The position numbers were made by a program, and so were the translations under genes. Below the pieces are notes generated by a model. That model was given only the letters and a program-made list of their open reading frames with translations. It was not told the origin of the DNA and made no database searches. DNA of 64,000 nt, taken from Natrinema halophilum. Lineage in GTDB: Archaea > Halobacteriota > Halobacteria > Halobacteriales > Natrialbaceae. The stretch covers positions 2,046,001 through 2,110,000 of the forward strand of contig NZ_CP058601.1 in the NCBI RefSeq assembly GCF_013402815.2. Reading direction: 5' to 3'. Of the stretch, positions 40,852-51,985 are shown piece after piece. Position 1 is the first letter of the stretch. Every line of letters starts with the position of its first letter.

Positions 40852-41259
40852 CTATTCGGCGGGACTCGGTCGCTGTACGCGTGAAAGGTATCCCGCCAGA
40901 TCCGATGTCGTGATCATCCCGATGACGCCTTCCTCGTCGTCGACGACGGGGATGTGATGGAAATCGTGTTCGACCATCGTGTCGGCGGCGTCGCGGATGC
41001 GATCCTGTGCCGTGGTCGTTACGACGTCGGAACTCATATACGTCGAAACCGGCGTCTGATCTTTCGGCTGCCGTTCGGAGACGATTCGGACGAAATCCGT
41101 CGTCGTCAGGATACCCTCGAGTCGGTTGTGGTCGTCGACGACGACGACCGAACCGATCCCGTTTTCGAGCATCACCTGTGCAGCGTCTTCGACGAGTGTG
41201 TCCGGCGTCACCGTGTGCAAAGACGTGGACATGACTCGAGCGACGAAAATATCCTCCAT
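40852..41259 (-). CDS. CBS-domain pair protein
   Basis: The 135 residues are two CBS motifs in tandem (ARVMSTSLHTVTPDTLVEDAAQVMLENGIGSVVVVDD and VSTYMSSDVVTTTAQDRIRDAADTMVEHDFHHIPVVDDEEGVIGMITTSDLAGYL). Such Bateman modules bind adenosine nucleotides or other charged ligands and sense energy status; the partner is unknown. The gene diverges from the helicase-nuclease operon. Confidence 0.93.
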   Translation of the reverse strand: MEDIFVARVMSTSLHTVTPDTLVEDAAQVMLENGIGSVVVVDDHNRLEGILTTTDFVRIVSERQPKDQTPVSTYMSSDVVTTTAQDRIRDAADTMVEHDFHHIPVVDDEEGVIGMITTSDLAGYLSRVQRPSPAE

Positions 41260-41385: not shown

Positions 41386-43701
41386 ATGGCGACACCGCCG
41401 CCGGAACTCGAGGGAACGTGCAAGCTCCTCTCCGAGCCCGCACAGAGTAGCGATCTGTTCGCGACGATTACGACAGAGTACGCCGATCTCGCGGACGAAT
41501 ACGGGGCCCGAAACGTCCTGGTCCTGAAACGGCATCCGGCGGGGATCGAATCGGTGACCGCAGCGCTGGCCGACGCGGACGCCGGCCGATCTAACGGCCG
41601 GCCGCGCTCGCCCCGTATCGAGTCACTTCCGGAACACGCCTCGAAAGTCATCGAGGAGTACGACCCGACGCTGTCCCGACTCGAGTACGAAGAACGGATC
41701 GAGCTCGTTTCGATGGTGATCGACGGAGCGAGTCGGTCGGTACCGGACTACCTCGAGCGTGCGGCCGCCCACGAGAGTTTCGCACGCGACGTCGGGCAAT
41801 TACTGCTCGAGGCGACCCGCCAGCGAATTCGTCTCGACGACCTCGATGACCCCCACGACTGTCTGGCGTTTCTGTACGCGATGAACGACCGCTTCCACGC
41901 AGAACTCGACGACCGGGGGTACGTCGAACGGGCGGACGTGATCCCACAGGCCGTCGAGTTACTCGAGGCGGACGTAGATGAGTTGCGAAGCCGTATCACC
42001 GCCTCGTTCGACGCCGTTCTCGCCATCGAGTTCGAGGAGTACCGCCGCCTCGATCGGCGATTTCTTTCGACACTGACCGACGACGCCGCGCTCGTCTGTC
42101 TCGGCGAGCGCAACGCAAGCGTCGAACGGACGCGAGTCGAGCCCGGTGACGTCACGGCGATGGCGAACGCGGCCGGTCTCGATGTCGAGTCGCTCGACCC
42201 CGGCAAGGGCCATCGCGGCGACGGCGATCCACCGCACCGGGCGATTACGCGTCTTCTCGCAACGGGCGAGTCACCGAGTCGGACCGGAGGCGCCGACCGT
42301 GCGGGAGAAGCCGAGGCTGAAGACGCCGAGGTCGGGGACGGGGCCACTTCATCCGACGGAGGCTCGACGGCTGTCGGTCCGATCGGACGCGCTAACCGCA
42401 TACACACCCGAACCAGCCGCGAACATGTCCGAGCCGTCGCGACCGAGATACAGTCGCTTCGCGACCGCCACGGCTGGTCGTTCGACGAGTTTGCCGTCGC
42501 CGTCCCCCGGATCGAGCGAGTTCCCGAGACCAGACGACGGTTCCGGGATGCCGGCGTGCCGACAGCCACGATCGGTACCCCCTCACTCGCCGAAGACCCC
42601 GCGGTGAACGAACTCTACGCAGTCGTCACGCTTCAGTGCGAACGCGAGAACGAGGAAGTGGACGACTGGAATGCCCGAACAGACCCCGACGACCCCACAG
42701 GCGACGCGAGCGGGCCGCGAAACGATTCGTTGGATCGACTTCGTGCTCGGGTGCCGGGGTTCTCGCCGGCCCTGCTCGCGAACACCGCCGGCTCGAGCAT
42801 CCGACGCTCGCTCGAACGCTGGACCCACCGAACGGATCTAAAAGGCCGGATCGCTCGCGAGGAGGACTGGGTCGACGCTCGCGAGCAGTACGAGGGTATC
42901 CGTCGGGTGCTTGAAATCGCACAGTTCGCGGAAGAGACCGACCTCGTCGGCCCGGACTGGCGCGGGCTGCGCCGAATGCTCCGACGGACGATTCGGTACG
43001 ACGCGCCGTACGTCCACGCGGTCGAGACGCGACCCCCTACCGGCGGCGTCACGGTCTGTGCCGTCGACGACCTGAAGTACGATTCGCGGAACGCGGTTTT
43101 CCTGCTCGACCTGATCGACGAAACCTATCCGGGCGAGCAGTTTCTCACCCAGCTCTTTCCGACGGCGTGGCTCCGGGAGATGTCGGCCTATCCCGCGGTT
43201 ACCGACCCGTCCCTTCAGGCGATCGCCGACACGTTCGACACCGTCGAGACGACCGGCGTCGGCGATCCGTTCGAAACGTACCACGCTCATCGATCCCGTC
43301 GACGGCTCGCGCTCGGGTCCCGCGCGGCCGAGCGCGTCCTCTACTGTTGTTCGTACGAACGCGGCGCAGGCGGCTTACGTCGAACTCACGACGAGTCTCG
43401 CTACCTGAAACTGATCGAGTCGACACCGGGACTCGCCCTCGAGGACGTAGACGTTCGCGCCGACGCGGCGATTCACGGCGAACCGAACGCGATCGAGGCG
43501 CTGCTCGACCAGCCCCGCGGCGAACTCGAGCGGGTGCTTCGAGAGGCGAGCACGGGCGGTGAGGCCGACCTCGGCGAGACGGAAGCGCTGTTCGAGGAAA
43601 TCGCGGTCGTCCTCGAGGACGGAGACGTAGACGACGAACTCGCGGAGGCGGTCCGCTCGCAGTTCGAGTTCGCCGCGGGTACGGTGGTCCGTGATGACTG
43701 A
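41386..43701 (+). CDS. AddB-like helicase-fold protein without ATPase motif
   Basis: The 771 residues have no Walker A loop. Several blocks resemble the inactive helicase half of AddB/RecC proteins: an early VLVLKRHPAG, LEYEERIELVSMVI, the EFEEYRRLDRRFLSTLTDDAALVCLGE region where Walker B would sit, and late TGGVTVCAVDDLKYDSRNAVFLLDLIDETYPG and LGSRAAERVLYCCSYERGAGG, which parallel the motif V-VI region of UvrD-like enzymes. A low-complexity acidic insert lies around residues 310-340. Its stop overlaps the next start by 8 bases. The AddB assignment is inference from layout and weak motifs. Confidence 0.7.
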   Translation: MATPPPELEGTCKLLSEPAQSSDLFATITTEYADLADEYGARNVLVLKRHPAGIESVTAALADADAGRSNGRPRSPRIESLPEHASKVIEEYDPTLSRLEYEERIELVSMVIDGASRSVPDYLERAAAHESFARDVGQLLLEATRQRIRLDDLDDPHDCLAFLYAMNDRFHAELDDRGYVERADVIPQAVELLEADVDELRSRITASFDAVLAIEFEEYRRLDRRFLSTLTDDAALVCLGERNASVERTRVEPGDVTAMANAAGLDVESLDPGKGHRGDGDPPHRAITRLLATGESPSRTGGADRAGEAEAEDAEVGDGATSSDGGSTAVGPIGRANRIHTRTSREHVRAVATEIQSLRDRHGWSFDEFAVAVPRIERVPETRRRFRDAGVPTATIGTPSLAEDPAVNELYAVVTLQCERENEEVDDWNARTDPDDPTGDASGPRNDSLDRLRARVPGFSPALLANTAGSSIRRSLERWTHRTDLKGRIAREEDWVDAREQYEGIRRVLEIAQFAEETDLVGPDWRGLRRMLRRTIRYDAPYVHAVETRPPTGGVTVCAVDDLKYDSRNAVFLLDLIDETYPGEQFLTQLFPTAWLREMSAYPAVTDPSLQAIADTFDTVETTGVGDPFETYHAHRSRRRLALGSRAAERVLYCCSYERGAGGLRRTHDESRYLKLIESTPGLALEDVDVRADAAIHGEPNAIEALLDQPRGELERVLREASTGGEADLGETEALFEEIAVVLEDGDVDDELAEAVRSQFEFAAGTVVRDD

Positions 43702-44740
43702 CGGTGATTCGACCGTTGCCTCCCTCTCCGTCGACGGCATTCGCACCGCCCTGCACTGCCCTCGCCGGTACGAGTTAGCCTCCGTCGACGGACTCGAGTG
43801 CGGCGAAGACGACGCAGTCGAGGAACGGGTCGACCTGCTACGAACCGCGATCTGCGACGCGCTCCGAAGCGGCGAAACGGACCGCGAGGGGATCGAATCC
43901 GCGGCTCGAGATCGACTATCGAGTCTGTGGTCGGATCACGACGAGCGCTTTCACTCCGTGGCCCAGCGCCGCCACGAGCGGCGGGTCCTCGACGCGACGA
44001 TCGTCGCGTACGCGGAGCGCATCGGGACCGACCACGCCGTGGGGATCGAACGGCTGACCACCGACGCGACCGGCGGCGAATTGATCGGGCCCGGGTTACC
44101 ACTCTCCAGTACGATCGCCCTGTCGGAACCGAAAGCCGAACCGGAACTCGACGGGGAGACGATATCGATCGACGCGACGGTCGACTACGTCTCCGGCGAC
44201 GACTCGTCGATCGTCGGCGTCCGGTTCGTTCCCACGCTCGCGCCGCTTGGCAGACTACGGTACCGGTCCGACTGGGAGGGCGACGTCGCAACCCGATTTA
44301 CGGATCACTTCGCCGACGACGCCGACGTATTTGACCCGGACCCGGTGGGAGTTCTCTTCGAGACCGCGGTCGTCCTCGACGGGCTCCGCGACCTCCGCGA
44401 TCGACTCGGACTGGGTGATCGAACCTGTCGGTACGTCCAGATCCCGGTCGCCGACCGATCGAGCCTGTCGGTGAACTGGGTACAGAACGAAGTCGAAACG
44501 AACCTCGAAGTCGTCGATCTGACCGACGTCTACGTCGACCACCACACGTTCGGCATGACACACGATCACCGCAACGAGACGGTTGACGGCCGACTTGCGA
44601 CGGTTGCCGCGACGCTCGTCGCGGAGTCGTTCGATCCTGCCCGGCGGTGGAACGAAATCGAAGAACACGCCTGCCCCGACTGTGACTACACCGTTTGCTG
44701 TCAGGAGTACATCGCCCACGAGGTGCGCTTCGATGGCTGA
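43694..44740 (+). CDS. AddB/Cas4-type iron-sulfur nuclease-fold protein, probably inactive
   Basis: The 348 residues have Cys22 (HCPRRYEL) near the start and C327-x2-C330-x5-C336 near the end, the four-cysteine iron-sulfur staple of AddB, Dna2 and Cas4. Between them the expected catalytic strand (D...D/E-x-K) reads DATVDYVSGDDSSIVGVRFVP, so the Lys and second acid appear to be missing. I infer a structural, DNA-binding nuclease relic that completes a split AddB. It overlaps both neighbours by 8 bases (ATGACTGA and ATGGCTGA), so all three are translated together. Confidence 0.75.
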   Translation: MTDGDSTVASLSVDGIRTALHCPRRYELASVDGLECGEDDAVEERVDLLRTAICDALRSGETDREGIESAARDRLSSLWSDHDERFHSVAQRRHERRVLDATIVAYAERIGTDHAVGIERLTTDATGGELIGPGLPLSSTIALSEPKAEPELDGETISIDATVDYVSGDDSSIVGVRFVPTLAPLGRLRYRSDWEGDVATRFTDHFADDADVFDPDPVGVLFETAVVLDGLRDLRDRLGLGDRTCRYVQIPVADRSSLSVNWVQNEVETNLEVVDLTDVYVDHHTFGMTHDHRNETVDGRLATVAATLVAESFDPARRWNEIEEHACPDCDYTVCCQEYIAHEVRFDG

Positions 44741-47700
44741 CCGACACCGGCGGAACGGCGACGACGATCCCGCGTTCGCGACCCACGTCGACCCGAAAGG
44801 CAATCAGCGCGCGGTCATCGACAGCGACGCGGCCTGTACCTCCGTGGACGCGGGTGCCGGAACGGGAAAGACGACGACGATGCTCGTTCGTCTCGAGCGC
44901 GCTCTCGATCGAGGCGAGGTCGATCCCGACGACGTGCTGGTGTTGACGTTCGCGAACGAGGCCGCCGCAAACATCCGGGCGGCGGTCACGGAGCGGCTCG
45001 ACCCCGACGATGCCGCGGCAGTCGACGTCTACACCTACCACTCGTTCTGTTATCGCCTCGTCCGCGAGTATGCGTACTATTTGGGGTATTCGCCCGAATT
45101 CGACGTCGTCACCGAGCGCACCCGGCGGCGGATCATCGGTCGCCTACTCGCCGACAACGACTACGATTTCGCGGCCGCGTCGACCCGGGACGACGGGGCG
45201 CCGGCCGACCTTACCGAATCGATCGATCGCTTCATCCAGGCGATGAGCCAGGAGAACGTTACACCGGATCGGTTGCGGGCGGGACTACCACCGGTCCGGA
45301 CACTCGAGCTCTGCAACGAGTTCGTCCTGTGGCTCGAGCGAACGGCTGGCGAGGAGCTATCGTTCGACGACGAGGCGCTTCGCTACTTCAATCGAGACGA
45401 GCACCTCGAGTCGGCCCGGGAGTCGTTGGTCGATTACGGCAAACTCCTCTCGTACTGTCGGGAAAAGATCGTCGAGGCCCCGGCAGCCTTCCGCGAGGAC
45501 GACGTGGTTCGCGACGTCGACCGCTACCTGCGAGTCCTCCAGCAGTGCGTCACGAACACGATCGAAACGCTCTCGCTCGAGGATCGGACGACGAAGCACC
45601 TCCCGCGGACGCTGTTCGGTAACGAGATTTGGGGATCGGCCACGAATCGGATCGAGCAGACCCCGTTCGGCCGTCTGAAACACTATGTGGAGTTTCTCCG
45701 GTTGGCCCGCCACTTCGCCGACGTATACGCGGATTACCACGACCGTCTCGAGGCCAAGCGAACGATGGACTTCGACGAACTGGTACGGACGGCGACCGAG
45801 TTACTGGCGGACGACTCGGTCGCCGACGAGATCACCGGCCGGTGGACGCAGGTGTACTGTGATGAGTTTCAGGACACTGACGAGACGCAGTTTTCCCTGC
45901 TCACCGACCTCACGGACGGTTCCGATCGGCCGGACTTGCTCGCAATCGGTGACAAAGACCAGGCGATTTACGGCTGGCGAGGCACTGACCGCGAGGGGTT
46001 AGACCGGCTGGCAGACGCCTACGACGACCACGAGGCGATCGAACTCGAACTGAACTTCCGCTCGCGGCAGGAAATTCTCGACCTGACCAACGCCTGCGAT
46101 TACGGCCCGCAGTCCTCGAAGACGCTGCGCGAGGACGGTCGGACGCCCGGTACGGACGACGAAGATGACCCGCCGGACCGCGTAATCAAGATCGAGAGCG
46201 ACCAGATGAACCTCTCGACGGCCGAACAGGTCGCAACGACGGTATCGCGGCTGCTCAACGGTGCAGCCGAGAACGTCACGCAACGCACTCCGGGCGACAT
46301 CGCAGTTATCGTTCGGACGAATCGCCACGCCCAGCTGGTCGCGGACGAACTCCGAGACCTGCAGATCCCGTTCGACGTTTCCGGCTCGCCACGGGGTGAG
46401 ATTTCGCCCGGACTACGAACCGCCCTGTCGTACCTCCGGGTACTCGTCGACCCGGACGCGGATACACACCTTCGGCGCGTGCTCCTCTACCGATACCGAC
46501 TCACGGACGAGGATCTGTCGACGCTGCACGGACGGGACGGATCGCTGTACGACGCGGTGATGGATTCGAGTCCGGAGACCGGGGCGGTCGAGCGGCCGGA
46601 ACGGCTCGAGCAGGCACGAGACCACCTCACGGCTCTCGAGACGTTCCGGGACGTCTACCCGCTCTCGGGATTCATCCGCCGGTTCCGGGACCTTACGCGA
46701 ATCGAGTGGTTCTGTACGAGCGACGAACGGGACGAATTCGATCGGCTCGATCGGTTCGTCGAGGCGTACGATTCGGACGGCGTCGTCCAGTCGCTCTCCG
46801 CGGAGTTCGTCGACGCGCTCGCACGGACGCTGCGAAGCGGCGGGAGCGATCGAACGCGCGGAACCCGATCGGCCGATAGCGTTGACGTCATGACGGTCCA
46901 TCAGGCGAAAGGCCTCGAGTTCGATACCGTTCTCGTTCCCTACCTTTCGGACGAGGAGTGGTGCGTCGACGGGGACTACGTCGAGCGAGCGCGGTACGAA
47001 CTGTTGGCCGCCACGCTCGACGACGACGTGGCGTCTCCGCTGCTCGCCGATCTGGCCACCGAGACGGTCGGTGAAGAGTGGCGAGTCCTCCACGTCGCGC
47101 TCACGCGGGCCGAGAACCACCTGTTCATCTTCGGATCCGCGTACGAATACGACGGCGGGGAAGACGAACTCGCGGCGTCGACCGCCGAGGCGTGTCTGGC
47201 AACCGACATCGAGTGGTCGGTCACCGGCCGGCGGATGAATCTCTGGTCGTCGCTGACCGATAGCTTCGAGCGAGTCCGAGAGACCTACCCGAAAACCGTC
47301 GTCGATCGAACCGACGAAATCGCCGCTTCGGCGGGCAATCGTCCGGGAACGATCACCTACTATGCCGACTACGGGGAGAGAGCGGTCGAACCGCTCGAAA
47401 CGCGGGAAGCGATCGAAACCGTTCACCGACTGGGTCGGCTACTTCGCGATGGGACGCTGTTACCGGCAGCCGACGCGGCGAGCCACCTCGGAGGACGGGG
47501 CCGACGCGACGACGACATCGATGATGGGCCCTCCATCCGGATTCCACGCAGTCGCCGACCGACCGCACTGACGACAGATACCGTTCGATTTCCGGTCGAT
47601 GCCCTCGCGTCGACTGCCGAGCTTCCGGTCGCGATCCGCCACAGCTACTCCGCGATCGACACCCACGAGACCTGTCCCCGAAAGCACTACCTCGATCACG

Positions 47701-48527
47701 TCGTCCGCGCGATCGACGATCCGCTCGAGGCGACGGAGACGATCCCTGTCGCGGGACCGAACGCCTCGACAGAACCGGGTGCCGTCTCGGAATCGGACGC
47801 CTCGACGGAGACGAGCGTCGATGAGTCACCGCCAGCCGAGGCCAACGGCGGGACAGCGACGGCGCAGGCCGAGTCACCGTCACAAATCGTCGGCACGCTC
47901 TTTCACGACATCGCAGAGGAGGCCTTTCACCGCGACGCCGCGACGCGCGCTGCGTGGCGCGAGATCGCCATCCGGCAACTCACCGCGCGTGATGTGCTCG
48001 AGTACCGCAGTCAAGTCCTCGCCAGTATCGATCGCTATTTCGAGGCGACCGCACCCGCGTTCGGCCGGCCAGTCGCCGACTGGGACCCCCTCGCGGCGGA
48101 ACTGCCGTTCTCACTCGAAGACGTCGACGGTGTGACGGGAGCCGTCGTCGGCTACGTTGACTCGGTGCGACGGCTTCCCGATGGTGGCCTCGCCGTACTC
48201 GATTACAAAACGACTGACGAGCGAATCGACGCCGAAGACGCCGTTCAGCTGGCGCTCTACCGACGGGCCTGTGTAGACCGGTTCGACGAGCCGGTTGCGA
48301 CCGTCGGCTACGTCTACGTCGGCGACGTCGACGAACCGCGAATCGACCTCTTCGACGCCGACGAACTGCCATCGTGGAAAACCGTCCTCGAGGCGCTCGA
48401 GTCGGTCGACGATCCGTCGTTTACGGAGACGAGGGCGGGAGAACACTGTCGGCGCTGCCCGCATCGGTCGCTGGGGTGCGGGCCGGCGGAGTACACGCCG
48501 GCCCGCGAGCTGTCGAACGACGACTGA
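44733..48527 (+). CDS. AddA-like UvrD-family helicase with PD-(D/E)XK nuclease domain
   Basis: The 1264 residues start with a superfamily 1 helicase: Walker A DAGAGTGKTT (39-48), DEFQDTDETQ (Walker B), GDKDQAIYGWRG (motif III), MTVHQAKGLEFDTV (motif V) and HVALTRAENHLFIFG (motif VI). After an acidic linker the C-terminal RecB-type nuclease shows HETCPRKHY, GTLFHDIAEEAF, VVGYVDSV, LDYKTTDE and QLALYRRA, so all catalytic residues are present. A cysteine cluster CRRC-x6-C at the end suggests an iron-sulfur staple as well. This should be the motor and nuclease of a double-strand-break resection complex. Confidence 0.88.
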   Translation: MADRHRRNGDDDPAFATHVDPKGNQRAVIDSDAACTSVDAGAGTGKTTTMLVRLERALDRGEVDPDDVLVLTFANEAAANIRAAVTERLDPDDAAAVDVYTYHSFCYRLVREYAYYLGYSPEFDVVTERTRRRIIGRLLADNDYDFAAASTRDDGAPADLTESIDRFIQAMSQENVTPDRLRAGLPPVRTLELCNEFVLWLERTAGEELSFDDEALRYFNRDEHLESARESLVDYGKLLSYCREKIVEAPAAFREDDVVRDVDRYLRVLQQCVTNTIETLSLEDRTTKHLPRTLFGNEIWGSATNRIEQTPFGRLKHYVEFLRLARHFADVYADYHDRLEAKRTMDFDELVRTATELLADDSVADEITGRWTQVYCDEFQDTDETQFSLLTDLTDGSDRPDLLAIGDKDQAIYGWRGTDREGLDRLADAYDDHEAIELELNFRSRQEILDLTNACDYGPQSSKTLREDGRTPGTDDEDDPPDRVIKIESDQMNLSTAEQVATTVSRLLNGAAENVTQRTPGDIAVIVRTNRHAQLVADELRDLQIPFDVSGSPRGEISPGLRTALSYLRVLVDPDADTHLRRVLLYRYRLTDEDLSTLHGRDGSLYDAVMDSSPETGAVERPERLEQARDHLTALETFRDVYPLSGFIRRFRDLTRIEWFCTSDERDEFDRLDRFVEAYDSDGVVQSLSAEFVDALARTLRSGGSDRTRGTRSADSVDVMTVHQAKGLEFDTVLVPYLSDEEWCVDGDYVERARYELLAATLDDDVASPLLADLATETVGEEWRVLHVALTRAENHLFIFGSAYEYDGGEDELAASTAEACLATDIEWSVTGRRMNLWSSLTDSFERVRETYPKTVVDRTDEIAASAGNRPGTITYYADYGERAVEPLETREAIETVHRLGRLLRDGTLLPAADAASHLGGRGRRDDDIDDGPSIRIPRSRRPTALTTDTVRFPVDALASTAELPVAIRHSYSAIDTHETCPRKHYLDHVVRAIDDPLEATETIPVAGPNASTEPGAVSESDASTETSVDESPPAEANGGTATAQAESPSQIVGTLFHDIAEEAFHRDAATRAAWREIAIRQLTARDVLEYRSQVLASIDRYFEATAPAFGRPVADWDPLAAELPFSLEDVDGVTGAVVGYVDSVRRLPDGGLAVLDYKTTDERIDAEDAVQLALYRRACVDRFDEPVATVGYVYVGDVDEPRIDLFDADELPSWKTVLEALESVDDPSFTETRAGEHCRRCPHRSLGCGPAEYTPARELSNDD

Positions 48528-48734: not shown

Positions 48735-51338
48735 TTAAGACTGCCAGTCGAATCGCTCCGGGTTCCGCGTCGCCAGCGCCGTCCGAACCGCGGCGACGTT
48801 CTCGGCGCCGTCGTGGACCCGGACGATGTCGGCCCCCCGGTCGGCCGCGAGGGCGGTGGCCGCGACGGTGGCCTCGAGTCGCTCGCCGGGATCGCGACCG
48901 ATCTGGGCGAACATGCTCTTGTGGGAGTGCCCGAACAGCACCGGACACCCCAGCGCGTGGAACTCGTCGATCCGGTCGAGTAGTTCGAAGCTTTCGGCCG
49001 CGGACTTGCCGAAGCCGATGCCGGGGTCGACGATGATTCGGTCGCGGTCGAGGCCGGCCTTCTCGGCGAGCAAGACTCGCTCGGAAAGGTGATCGATCAC
49101 GTCCGCGACGACGTCGTCGTACTCGACGTCGCGGTCGGGCACGACCGGTGCGTCGATACTGTGCATCACCACCAGTCCAGCGTCGTGGTCGGCGGCAACG
49201 AAGCGCATCTTGGGGTCCTCGAGCCCGGAGACGTCGTTGATGATGTCCGCACCCGCCTCGAGTGCCGCGTCAGCGACCGCCGCCCGGCGAGTGTCGACCG
49301 AAATCAGCGCGTCGAGATCGGCGATTCGCTCGATCACAGGCACGACTCGATCCAGTTCCTCGTCGATCGAGACGGGATCTGCACCCGGCCGCGTCGACTC
49401 CCCGCCGACGTCGATCACGTCGACGTCGGCGTCGACCATCGCCCTGGCGCGGGCCACGGCGTCCTCGAGGGCGTCGTATCGACCCCCATCGTGGAAGCTA
49501 TCCGGGGTGACGTTCAGAATACCCATCACCGACGGACGGTCCGCCCAGGGGAACGTGGCCTCGGTCGAATCGCCTGTCGTTCGAGCGGATGAACGGGACC
49601 AGCCCACGGTTCGTCGTTCCGTCGGAACCCTCTCGGTTTCTGGTGCCGTTTCGTCATCGGCGACGTCGGCAGCGCCAGCATCGATTTCGAGCGTGGTGCG
49701 TAACTCGCGGGCGACGTCGGCCAGCCCGTGGGGTCGCGAACGATTCTCGAGGACCTCGACGAGGGCCTCGAACTGGGCGAGCGTCCCCATCAAAACGGCG
49801 TCGACCGCCTCGTCGTCGCGATCGAGTCCCGAAAGGGCGCATTCGCCACCGAGACGAAGCAGTTCCTCCTGCAGGACCGTCGCTTGCCGGTCTCGGAGCG
49901 CCGTCCTGACGACTCGGTGGACGGCATCGCCGTCGAGCCGTTCGACGTCACCCGCGGCGACGTTCGCATCCTCGAGCGTCTCGCGGGCGTCAGAGAGGTC
50001 CCTGACACGCTTCGGTACGTCGGTGCGAGTCCACCGCGAGCGCGCTTCCGCGACGGCAAACAGGGAGCCGGTGACGAGCACGCAGTCGTCGCTCTCGGCC
50101 GCGTCGAGTGCGGTCGCGAGGGCGTCCTGTACTGCGGCCTCGGTCCGAACCGTGCTCGCACCGGCGTCGGCGAACGCCTCGGCGAGTACCGCACGGTCCT
50201 CGGCGCGCTCGAGCGACGGTTCAGTCGTGACGATGGCGTCGGGCGTGGGTAGCGCAGCGGCCATCGCGCGGTGATCCTTGTCGTGCATCGCCCCGAAGAC
50301 GACGTGGAGTCGGTCGAAATCGTACGTCCCGAGCGTTTCGGCGAGTTGCTCGCAGGCACCCGGGTTGTGCGCACCGTCTAACACGACCAGCGGCTCGGTG
50401 TCCATCACCTCGAACCGGCCCGGCCAGTGGGCGCTTCGGAGTCCGTTCTCGAGGTCGGCGGTCGATACGTCGCCGACCTGCGTTGCGATCGCGGCGGCGA
50501 TGCCGGCGTTGACGGCCTGGTATTCGCCAAGCAGCGGAATCCGCGTCTCGACGTGCCAGTCGTCCGCCTCGATCGAAACGGCGGCCTCGGTGTGGTTCGT
50601 CCGACCGCCGTACGTGACGCGGATGTCCGGCACGGAGCGTCCGTCCGTGGCATCCACAGTCTCGCTCGCGTCGTCCGCCTCCGGAGCCGTTCCCACCGTC
50701 ACGACCTCGCCAGCGACGTCGCGGACCGCCTCGAGCGAGTCGCCGGTGACGCCGGTCACGAGCGGGTCACCGTCCGGGGCGACGTGGGCCTTATCGCGGG
50801 CGATTTCGGCTTCGGTGTCGCCGAGGATACCCGTGTGTTCGAGCGTGACGCTCGTCACCGCACTTGCGACCGGATCGACGACGCTCGTGGCGTCGTACTT
50901 CCCGCCGATACCGACCTCGAGGACGGCGATGTCGACGTCTTCGCGGCCGAACTGCCACAGCGCCATGGCGGTCATCGTCTCGAAGAAGGTCGGGGACTCG
51001 CCGTCGGCCGCCCGCTCCGTGATGTAGTCGCGGACGGCGTCGACGTAGTCGCAGACGGCAGTCTGTGGAATTTTCCGGCCGTCGACGCGGATTCGCTCGC
51101 GGAGATCCTCGAGGTGGGGCGAGGTGTAGAGACCGACGGAGTAGCCGGCCTCGCGCAGGGTTCGCTCGAGCATCCGGGCCGTGCTCCCTTTGCCGTTGGA
51201 GCCGGCGATCTGGACGCAGTCGACGTCAGCGTGTGGGTTCTCGAGGTGGGATAGCAGCCGGGCCGTCGACTCGGTGCCCGGCTTCGGGCGGAACCGCCGG
51301 AGATCGAAACAGAAGTCCGCCGCCTCGTGATACTCCAT
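48735..51338 (-). CDS. folCP: Fused folylpolyglutamate/dihydrofolate synthase and dihydropteroate synthase
   Basis: The 867 residues combine FolC (about 1-420; ATP loop AGSNGKGSTARML, EVGIGGKYDATSVV, VLDGAHNPGACE) with FolP (about 600-867; ILNVTPDSFHDGG, DVGGESTRPGA, VDPGIGFGKSAAESFELLDR). About 180 residues between them (DLSDARETLEDANVAAGD...LMGTLAQFEALVEVLENRSR) are a helical region not found in either bacterial enzyme. The fusion is known from haloarchaea. It makes dihydropteroate and then adds glutamate. Start MEYHEAADF was chosen since upstream residues are not homologous. Confidence 0.95.
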   Translation of the reverse strand: MEYHEAADFCFDLRRFRPKPGTESTARLLSHLENPHADVDCVQIAGSNGKGSTARMLERTLREAGYSVGLYTSPHLEDLRERIRVDGRKIPQTAVCDYVDAVRDYITERAADGESPTFFETMTAMALWQFGREDVDIAVLEVGIGGKYDATSVVDPVASAVTSVTLEHTGILGDTEAEIARDKAHVAPDGDPLVTGVTGDSLEAVRDVAGEVVTVGTAPEADDASETVDATDGRSVPDIRVTYGGRTNHTEAAVSIEADDWHVETRIPLLGEYQAVNAGIAAAIATQVGDVSTADLENGLRSAHWPGRFEVMDTEPLVVLDGAHNPGACEQLAETLGTYDFDRLHVVFGAMHDKDHRAMAAALPTPDAIVTTEPSLERAEDRAVLAEAFADAGASTVRTEAAVQDALATALDAAESDDCVLVTGSLFAVAEARSRWTRTDVPKRVRDLSDARETLEDANVAAGDVERLDGDAVHRVVRTALRDRQATVLQEELLRLGGECALSGLDRDDEAVDAVLMGTLAQFEALVEVLENRSRPHGLADVARELRTTLEIDAGAADVADDETAPETERVPTERRTVGWSRSSARTTGDSTEATFPWADRPSVMGILNVTPDSFHDGGRYDALEDAVARARAMVDADVDVIDVGGESTRPGADPVSIDEELDRVVPVIERIADLDALISVDTRRAAVADAALEAGADIINDVSGLEDPKMRFVAADHDAGLVVMHSIDAPVVPDRDVEYDDVVADVIDHLSERVLLAEKAGLDRDRIIVDPGIGFGKSAAESFELLDRIDEFHALGCPVLFGHSHKSMFAQIGRDPGERLEATVAATALAADRGADIVRVHDGAENVAAVRTALATRNPERFDWQS

Positions 51339-51613
51339 ATTCAAACGAGAGAGCCCGATCGTTTTAGCGGTGGCGATAGGGTCCGAAACCGGGACCGAAG
51401 AAGACGAGCAGGGTGCGGAGCGGAGGCGGAGACAGGCGGCCACTGACGGTTCGCAGGAGTCCGGACGCAGCCGGCCATGGTGATGGAAATGGTCCGATTC
51501 GTCCGCGTCAGCGAGTGTTAACATGTTCGGAGGAAGACGCACCTTCCGGGAAGACACAGACTCTGGTAACGGGGCCCGAAACGACGATCGATACACCCCG
51601 AAGGAACCCATCA

Positions 51614-51985
51614 ATGCCAGCGACCGATTTCGACACCGAACGAACGTACGGCGAGGACCGATTCACCACCCGCTCCGTCTTTCGAAGCGACCGGACAAAG
51701 GTCGTTCTCGGCTACTTCGAGCCGGGACAGTTCATTCCGGTTCACGCGCCCGGAAGCGACGTCGTAATCAGCGTTCGGTCGGGAACCGGCGTCGTTCGCG
51801 AGGGGGAGACGGACCACGTCGTCGGGCCCGACGACGTGGTCGTCGTCGAAGCCGACGTCGAACGAGGCGTGCGCGCCGACGAGGACGGCCGACTCGAAGC
51901 GCTGCTGGTGACGAGTCCGCCGCCGACCAATGCCGAACACGATCCCGTTCGAGAGGGCCTGCAACGCGAGGTGTTCGATCCCTGA
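51614..51985 (+). CDS. Small cupin-domain protein
   Basis: The 123 residues form one cupin barrel: KVVLGYFEPGQFIPVHAPGSDVVISVRSGTGVVREGETDHVVGPDDVVVVEADVERGV. The first motif keeps one His (VHAP) while a second His and Glu are not evident, so metal binding is doubtful. The function is unknown. A similar C-terminal tail with LLVTSPPPT is shared by many halophile cupins. The ATG at 51614 starts the domain. Confidence 0.8.
   Translation: MPATDFDTERTYGEDRFTTRSVFRSDRTKVVLGYFEPGQFIPVHAPGSDVVISVRSGTGVVREGETDHVVGPDDVVVVEADVERGVRADEDGRLEALLVTSPPPTNAEHDPVREGLQREVFDP

Follow-up and report, generated by a model that had tools for sequence, protein, structure and literature searches.

Does a haloarchaeon possess an end-processing enzyme comparable to RecBC and AddAB, and if so, how is it built? 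The question is raised by three adjacent genes of Natrinema halophilum (family Natrialbaceae) in a 64,000-nucleotide stretch of contig NZ_CP058601.1 (positions 2,046,001 to 2,110,000), here called the window; features are given in its coordinates and on its forward (+) strand unless noted. Gene 1 (41386..43701, 771 amino acids [aa]) is predicted to encode an ATPase-dead superfamily 1A (SF1A) helicase-fold subunit resembling the helicase half of AddB, RecC, or AdnA. Gene 2 (43694..44740, 348 aa) is predicted to encode a catalytically dead iron-sulfur (Fe-S) nuclease domain of the RecB/AddB/Cas4 type, and gene 3 (44733..48527, 1264 aa) a UvrD-type motor joined to an Fe-S PD-(D/E)XK nuclease, both predicted to be active. 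We conclude that this triad probably specifies one RecBC/AddAB-like enzyme for resecting or degrading broken or linear DNA ends, containing a single motor and a single nuclease. The idea of one complete enzyme is supported by the constancy of the triad, an intact gene 3, profiles and structure models that match AddB, AdnAB, and UvrD, and a loss of the gene 2 catalytic residues that maps to a single step on the tree.

For the resection of DNA ends, one portion of a review on break repair in haloarchaea names only Mre11-Rad50 (PMC7776575), and a review on archaea in general names HerA-NurA (PMC7690668). We found no description of the triad as a machine in the open literature on archaeal AddAB and RecBCD, a scope outside which most subscription papers fall. 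If the triad does resect or degrade ends, archaea own a RecBC-type enzyme.

The three genes occur together in a constant order

The genes overlap by 8 nucleotides (nt) at both joints, ATGACTGA between genes 1 and 2 (43694..43701) and ATGGCTGA between genes 2 and 3 (44733..44740), as an earlier sequence-only reading of this DNA had described. Overlap lengths in relatives were read by nearest start; they equal 8 nt in about 27 of 40 loci at the first joint and in about 24 of 40 at the second, and otherwise mostly measure 1, 4, or 11 nt. The same reading had called for a survey of relatives. The triad was present, with the same gene order, in all 40 family loci (39 of them fetched, from close and divergent relatives), and it was complete in 76 of the 77 loci from named haloarchaeal genomes that were found with a gene 1 profile, the sole exception (L137) being cut by a contig end. 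This degree of conservation is far above chance. All of these loci were located via gene 1.

At the level of genomes, gene 1 is matched in 109 and gene 2 in 106 of 125 family genomes, some of these matches belonging to other, divergent clades. The triad is patchy in the wider class, where it occurs in 107 of 292 sampled genomes and in roughly one in five outside Natrialbaceae. Cultured genera, including Natrinema and Haloferax, are among its carriers. One locus that appeared to lack gene 2 (L087) was shown by tblastn to have it intact. Natural fusions of genes 1 and 2, suspected from long gene 1 frames in three genomes (G011, G083, and G102), were also rejected: the first two have three separate genes, with the additional gene 1 length contributed by upstream frame, and the gene 2 match of the third sits in a separate frame of 357 aa. 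No fusion of genes 1 and 2 was seen, and the three genes are separate in all loci.

Gene 3 carries the predicted motor and nuclease

The gene 3 product matches the Pfam families UvrD (5e-52), UvrD_C (2e-27), and PDDEXK_1 (2e-20), the last across residues 1046 to 1246 (47868..48470). Across 40 sequences, its motor residues, nuclease residues, and Fe-S cysteines vary little or not at all. Within the Walker A motif (GTGKT, residues 43 to 47; 44859..44873), G43, G45, K46, and T47 are invariant; within motif II (DEFQDTD, residues 377 to 383; 45861..45881), D377, E378, and Q380 to D383 are invariant and F379 is nearly so. Invariance also holds for nuclease residues H1058, D1143, D1157-Y-K1159, Q1172, and Y1176. 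These results agree with the initial description of gene 3 as a complete UvrD-type helicase with a RecB-type nuclease. To that description we add an Fe-S cysteine set of its own, comprising C981 (47673..47675) and C1239, C1242, and C1249 (C-x2-C-x6-C; 48447..48479), all of which are invariant.

By profile, gene 3 is not an AddA. It scores 138 bits (cut-off, 707.65) and 118.6 bits (cut-off, 860.75) against curated AddA models, less than the 197 bits that it obtains with a curated PcrA/UvrD model, and its alignment with UvrD-Cas4 fusions from other members of the phylum extends over both domains, helicase and nuclease (hhalign 3e-79, 955 columns). Among helicase-nucleases, the best match of its helicase is AdnB. 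The predicted protein fits the UvrD-Cas4 fusion type, namely, a UvrD-type helicase followed by an Fe-S PDDEXK_1 nuclease with active residues intact. UvrD-Cas4 fusions have been described as a monophyletic, mostly defense-linked group (PMC5704561); according to the same work each is one gene, frequently in a restriction or methylase setting (PMC5704561), whereas gene 3 was always found with genes 1 and 2. PADLOC matches of gene 3 to GajB and to an RT helicase were rejected as generic UvrD matches.

Since gene 3 is complete in itself, and the phylum also contains UvrD-Cas4 fusions that stand alone (L209-L214, L228), its product might act alone in the manner of Dna2/Bad or UvrD-Cas4, with genes 1 and 2 sharing only the operon and making up a separate pair with a regulatory or scaffold role. 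We consider this quite unlikely, because the three genes, with their overlapping starts, stand together in every complete locus that was fetched through gene 1.

Gene 1 has a helicase fold without a P-loop

No Pfam family matched gene 1 on its own. An alignment of 16 loci representing all clades revealed no P-loop in any clade; the expected Walker A site of the window sequence reads LLSEPAQSSDL, without GKT or GKS (41422..41454), and motif II is degenerate, with EFEEY replacing DEFQD (42028..42042) and E217 and E218 invariant. A search of the PDB with the gene 1 profile returned UvrD1 (6.6e-8) and AddB (3u44_B; 4.2e-7), and the AddB alignment is collinear, with residues 65 to 351 falling on 56 to 369. 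The AlphaFold model (predicted local distance difference test score [pLDDT], 83) was matched by Foldseek to UvrD, AddB, and AdnB at E values of 1e-17 to 1e-22 (AddB, 7e-21); RecB chains also matched. When family members of gene 1 were scanned as single sequences, AddB was the model most often matched (8 of 40). The curated AddB model matched neither gene 1 nor gene 2 of the window; its best matches among relatives were 4.7e-6 for gene 1 and 0.0012 for gene 2. Judged from motifs, profile, and model, gene 1 is predicted to be an SF1 helicase fold lacking a P-loop and to correspond to an AddB-like N-terminal half without translocation motifs. The ATPase-dead helicase half that had been proposed is thus borne out by the missing P-loop and by the UvrD and AddB matches of profile and model.

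Gene 2 is a retained nuclease domain that lost its active site

Gene 2 matches PDDEXK_1 at 1e-5. Its AlphaFold model (pLDDT, 88) has AddB and AdnA as its top PDB matches in Foldseek (probability, 1.00), with modest template modeling (TM) scores of 0.36 to 0.42. The folds predicted for genes 1 and 2 therefore both match AddB/AdnAB, the structural comparison that had been suggested for them. C22 (43757..43759) and the cluster of C327, C330, and C336 (C-x2-C-x5-C; 44672..44701) are invariant across 77 sequences; in one locus outside this alignment (L092), residue 327 is Tyr. The sequence consequently appears to keep the AddB-type Fe-S nuclease pattern C...C-x2-C-x5-C. At the former active site (44183..44230), D164 is kept, and residues 177 to 179 read RFV, versus DYK in active relatives. 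Both parts of the earlier claim, that the cysteine spacing is retained and that the catalytic Lys and acid are absent, stood.

Of 114 loci compared, 36 have the D-DYK signature intact and 78 have lost it. The gene 2 of Halorussus ruber (L152), a member of the dead clade, is an intermediate with D-DYR, in which the acid is kept and Lys is replaced by Arg. The ratio of nonsynonymous to synonymous substitution rates (dN/dS) in close pairs is 0.15 to 0.27, and this purifying selection, together with the four kept cysteines, indicates that the dead gene 2 is retained rather than decaying. Residues 281 to 290 (VDHHTFGMTH; 44534..44563) form a conserved, His-rich insertion peculiar to the clade of the window, the corresponding columns being filled in about 3% of other-clade sequences. 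This insertion adjoins a low-confidence stretch of the monomer model and may be an interface.

The triad resembles AddAB and RecBC without belonging to curated AddAB

The likeness to AddAB lies in a dead SF1 helicase half and an Fe-S nuclease half set against an active UvrD helicase-nuclease, in the adjacency of the genes, and in the C-x2-C-x5-C spacing of gene 2. The differences are that the partner in the AddB position is split into two genes, whereas AddB is one chain; that the gene 2 nuclease is dead in the clade of the window, whereas this position is active in AddAB and intact in the sister clade; and that gene 3 bears an Fe-S set of its own and does not fall within AddA by profile. Moreover, AddB-AddA pairs do exist in methanogens of the same phylum (L215-L218, L220-L222, and L224-L225); AddA and AddB are their best models, with scores below the bacterial cut-offs. 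In these loci, fused AddB-like genes (about 1026 to 1092 aa, no P-loop, C-x3-C-x5-C) stand beside AddA-like genes. The triad is therefore not simply the archaeal AddAB, and the AddAB-type membership put forward in the sequence-only reading was not supported as stated. Our best reading of the sequences is that the triad would work like AddAB/RecBC yet falls outside curated AddAB membership.

A single working nuclease, accompanied by a helicase and a nuclease domain that are both dead, recalls RecB plus RecC of RecBCD. The triad differs in having no RecD and in a dead nuclease that keeps its Fe-S cysteines and forms a separate chain, and none of the three window genes matched a RecC or RecD model. 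Mycobacterial AdnAB shares the UvrD-type subunits, the gene 2 model being close to AdnA and the gene 3 helicase to AdnB; it differs in having two chains, each with a UvrD motor and a nuclease domain, rather than three, and gene 1 lacks a P-loop. AdnA is itself regarded as the counterpart of AddB (PMC4824097).

A related question is where genes 1 and 2 came from. They had been described as a split AddB, and the AddB fold matches uphold the resemblance; as to descent, hhalign gives the gene 1 profile equal matches to AddB (4.4e-16) and to UvrD-Cas4 (5.5e-16), so AddB is one possible origin only. Alternatively, and compatibly with a single enzyme, the pair could derive from a duplicate of the UvrD-Cas4-type ancestor of gene 3, as in AdnA/AdnB, that was then split and lost its ATPase, which would make the resemblance to AddAB convergent. 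The gene 1 hidden Markov model scores 47 to 82 bits on UvrD-Cas4 fusions versus 25 to 41 on archaeal AddB, gene 2 likewise favors UvrD-Cas4, and the gene 1 profile also matches gene 3 (3.5e-13, L226). In a nuclease-domain tree for placing gene 2, which is star-like, gene 2 pairs weakly with UvrD-Cas4 (60/46 support). Set against this are the hhalign tie, the place of AddB as the commonest match of single gene 1 members, and deep branches that are long and without support. We rate this origin at just short of an even chance.

A one-nuclease clade and a two-nuclease sister clade differ in setting

On a tree of gene 3, the window groups with Natrinema loci, and the active or dead state of gene 2 switches only once (90 representatives; branch supports of 98 and 100; a quick tree with long branches present). 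In Natrialbaceae, the dead-clade triad lies on the chromosome in a syntenic position. In the sister clade, found in other haloarchaea, the DYK of gene 2 is intact; a single working nuclease, as first claimed, therefore applies to the clade of the window and not to its sister. Because the second nuclease was lost, our best reading is that the branch of the window is RecBC-like, with one nuclease and a dead partner, and the sister branch AddAB-like, with two nucleases.

The dead clade lies near uvrA/folCP. Of 49 named dead-clade loci, 37 have a divergently oriented CBS-domain gene (40852..41259, - strand in the window; Pfam CBS, 4e-31) next to the triad, and 19 have uvrA upstream; this setting occurs in none of the active-clade loci. 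The active-clade loci have varied and often defense-like settings. About ten of them have AgaP-like PLD genes flanking gene 1 upstream, and in four named loci (L173, L175, L176, and L179) a long Argonaute precedes the AgaP-like gene. Ignoring relatedness, the four Argonaute loci would all belong to the active set by chance with a probability of about 0.01. Neither Argonaute nor AgaP was found near dead-clade loci.

In the four Argonaute loci (L173, 2079-13370, for example), the order is compact: prokaryotic Argonaute (pAgo), AgaP (PLD, 706 aa), gene 1, active gene 2, and gene 3. Few bases separate AgaP from gene 1, and the run looks like an Argonaute operon that includes a helicase-nuclease of its own. 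In three further loci (L155, 2251-16321; L156, on a plasmid; and L157), the active-clade triad is preceded by Mre11-like and Rad50/SbcC-like genes; in the first of these loci, a GmrSD-type gene intervenes. Genes for GmrSD, Mrr, and AAA ATPases also occur near active-clade loci, two of which are plasmid-borne.

These settings raise the alternative that the enzyme is mainly antiviral, degrading linear or Argonaute-cleaved foreign DNA, and that the window copy is a chromosomal defense set rather than a repair enzyme. The sister-clade triad often stands directly behind agaP, other active-clade loci carry the Mre11-like, Rad50-like, GmrSD, or Mrr genes, and UvrD-Cas4 fusions are tied to defense (PMC5704561). 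Haloarchaeal pAgo-AgaP (APAP) restricts plasmids and one virus, and a helicase gene was noted near some of its operons (PMC11442185); a UvrD protein with PD-(D/E)XK motifs and Cas4-like proteins were also listed among Argonaute neighbors (PMC6299218). The link between Argonaute and the triad is thus partly on record, though not as a three-gene machine. The clade of the window has no such neighbors, is syntenic, and is nearly universal in its family, and no Piwi protein was matched in the whole window genome. We regard this alternative as unlikely.

More tentatively, a haloarchaeal family of three-chain helicase-nucleases may have split into a defense branch, linked to Argonaute and equipped with two nucleases, and a repair branch that is chromosomal and has one. 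The latter would have become RecBC-like, with dead helicase and dead nuclease partners, independently of bacterial RecBC, from UvrD-Cas4 rather than AddA stock, and would provide a second end-resection route beside HerA-NurA; this fuller scenario is possible, but we lean against it as a whole. If the triad does resect or degrade ends, the sister clades, with two nucleases versus one, constitute a natural experiment on the role of the second nuclease and on the way in which one ancestor is shared by a repair machine and a defense module linked to Argonaute.

Proposed mechanism

In the enzyme that we favor, the gene 3 product would be both the sole motor (3'-5', SF1A) and the sole nuclease, moving along DNA and cutting it. 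The gene 1 product would serve as its partner and hold the opposite strand. It might also scan the sequence of that strand, by analogy with AddB and RecC, in which the dead helicase fold serves as a scanner of single-stranded DNA for Chi (PMC4824097). Gene 2 would supply an Fe-S structural clamp beside gene 1, the counterpart, made as a separate chain, of the nuclease domain at the C terminus of AddB. The overlapping starts could couple the synthesis of the three proteins, which would then assemble into one complex. Its near-universal presence in the family and the syntenic place kept by the dead clade further suggest a housekeeping enzyme, probably with a role in recombination.

Several observations weigh against this interpretation. 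About one in eight family genomes has no gene 1 match, and for the gene 1 model Foldseek does not distinguish AddB from UvrD/AdnB. The same genomes also encode NurA (123 of 125 in the family and 111 of 111 of good quality); the machine could therefore be redundant or have a different function. The triad had been set apart from the Mre11-Rad50-HerA-NurA system usually invoked for archaea; with NurA in all family genomes of good quality, it does not replace HerA-NurA but would be an additional route. Finally, a search for a Chi-like, over-represented octamer had been suggested, and no strong octamer emerged from 400-kilobase samples of two triad genomes and one genome without the triad, with none above a z score of about 6 in either triad genome.

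Further features of the genomes

The palindrome CTCGAG is over-represented, at 1.4 to 1.5 times expectation, in two triad genomes (the window genome and G093) and under-represented (0.68) in a genome without the triad (G030); since it is not strand-biased, it is not Chi-like. The window genome also encodes a Dna2-like nuclease-helicase with Dna2, PDDEXK_1, and AAA_11/12 domains (L103, 6325-9402, equal to G000:C1, about 1895324-1898401). Just downstream of the triad, on the opposite strand (48735-51614, - strand), lies a long frame that by eye reads as a FolC-FolP-type fusion, with a folylpolyglutamate synthase-like N-terminal part and a dihydropteroate synthase-like C-terminal part.

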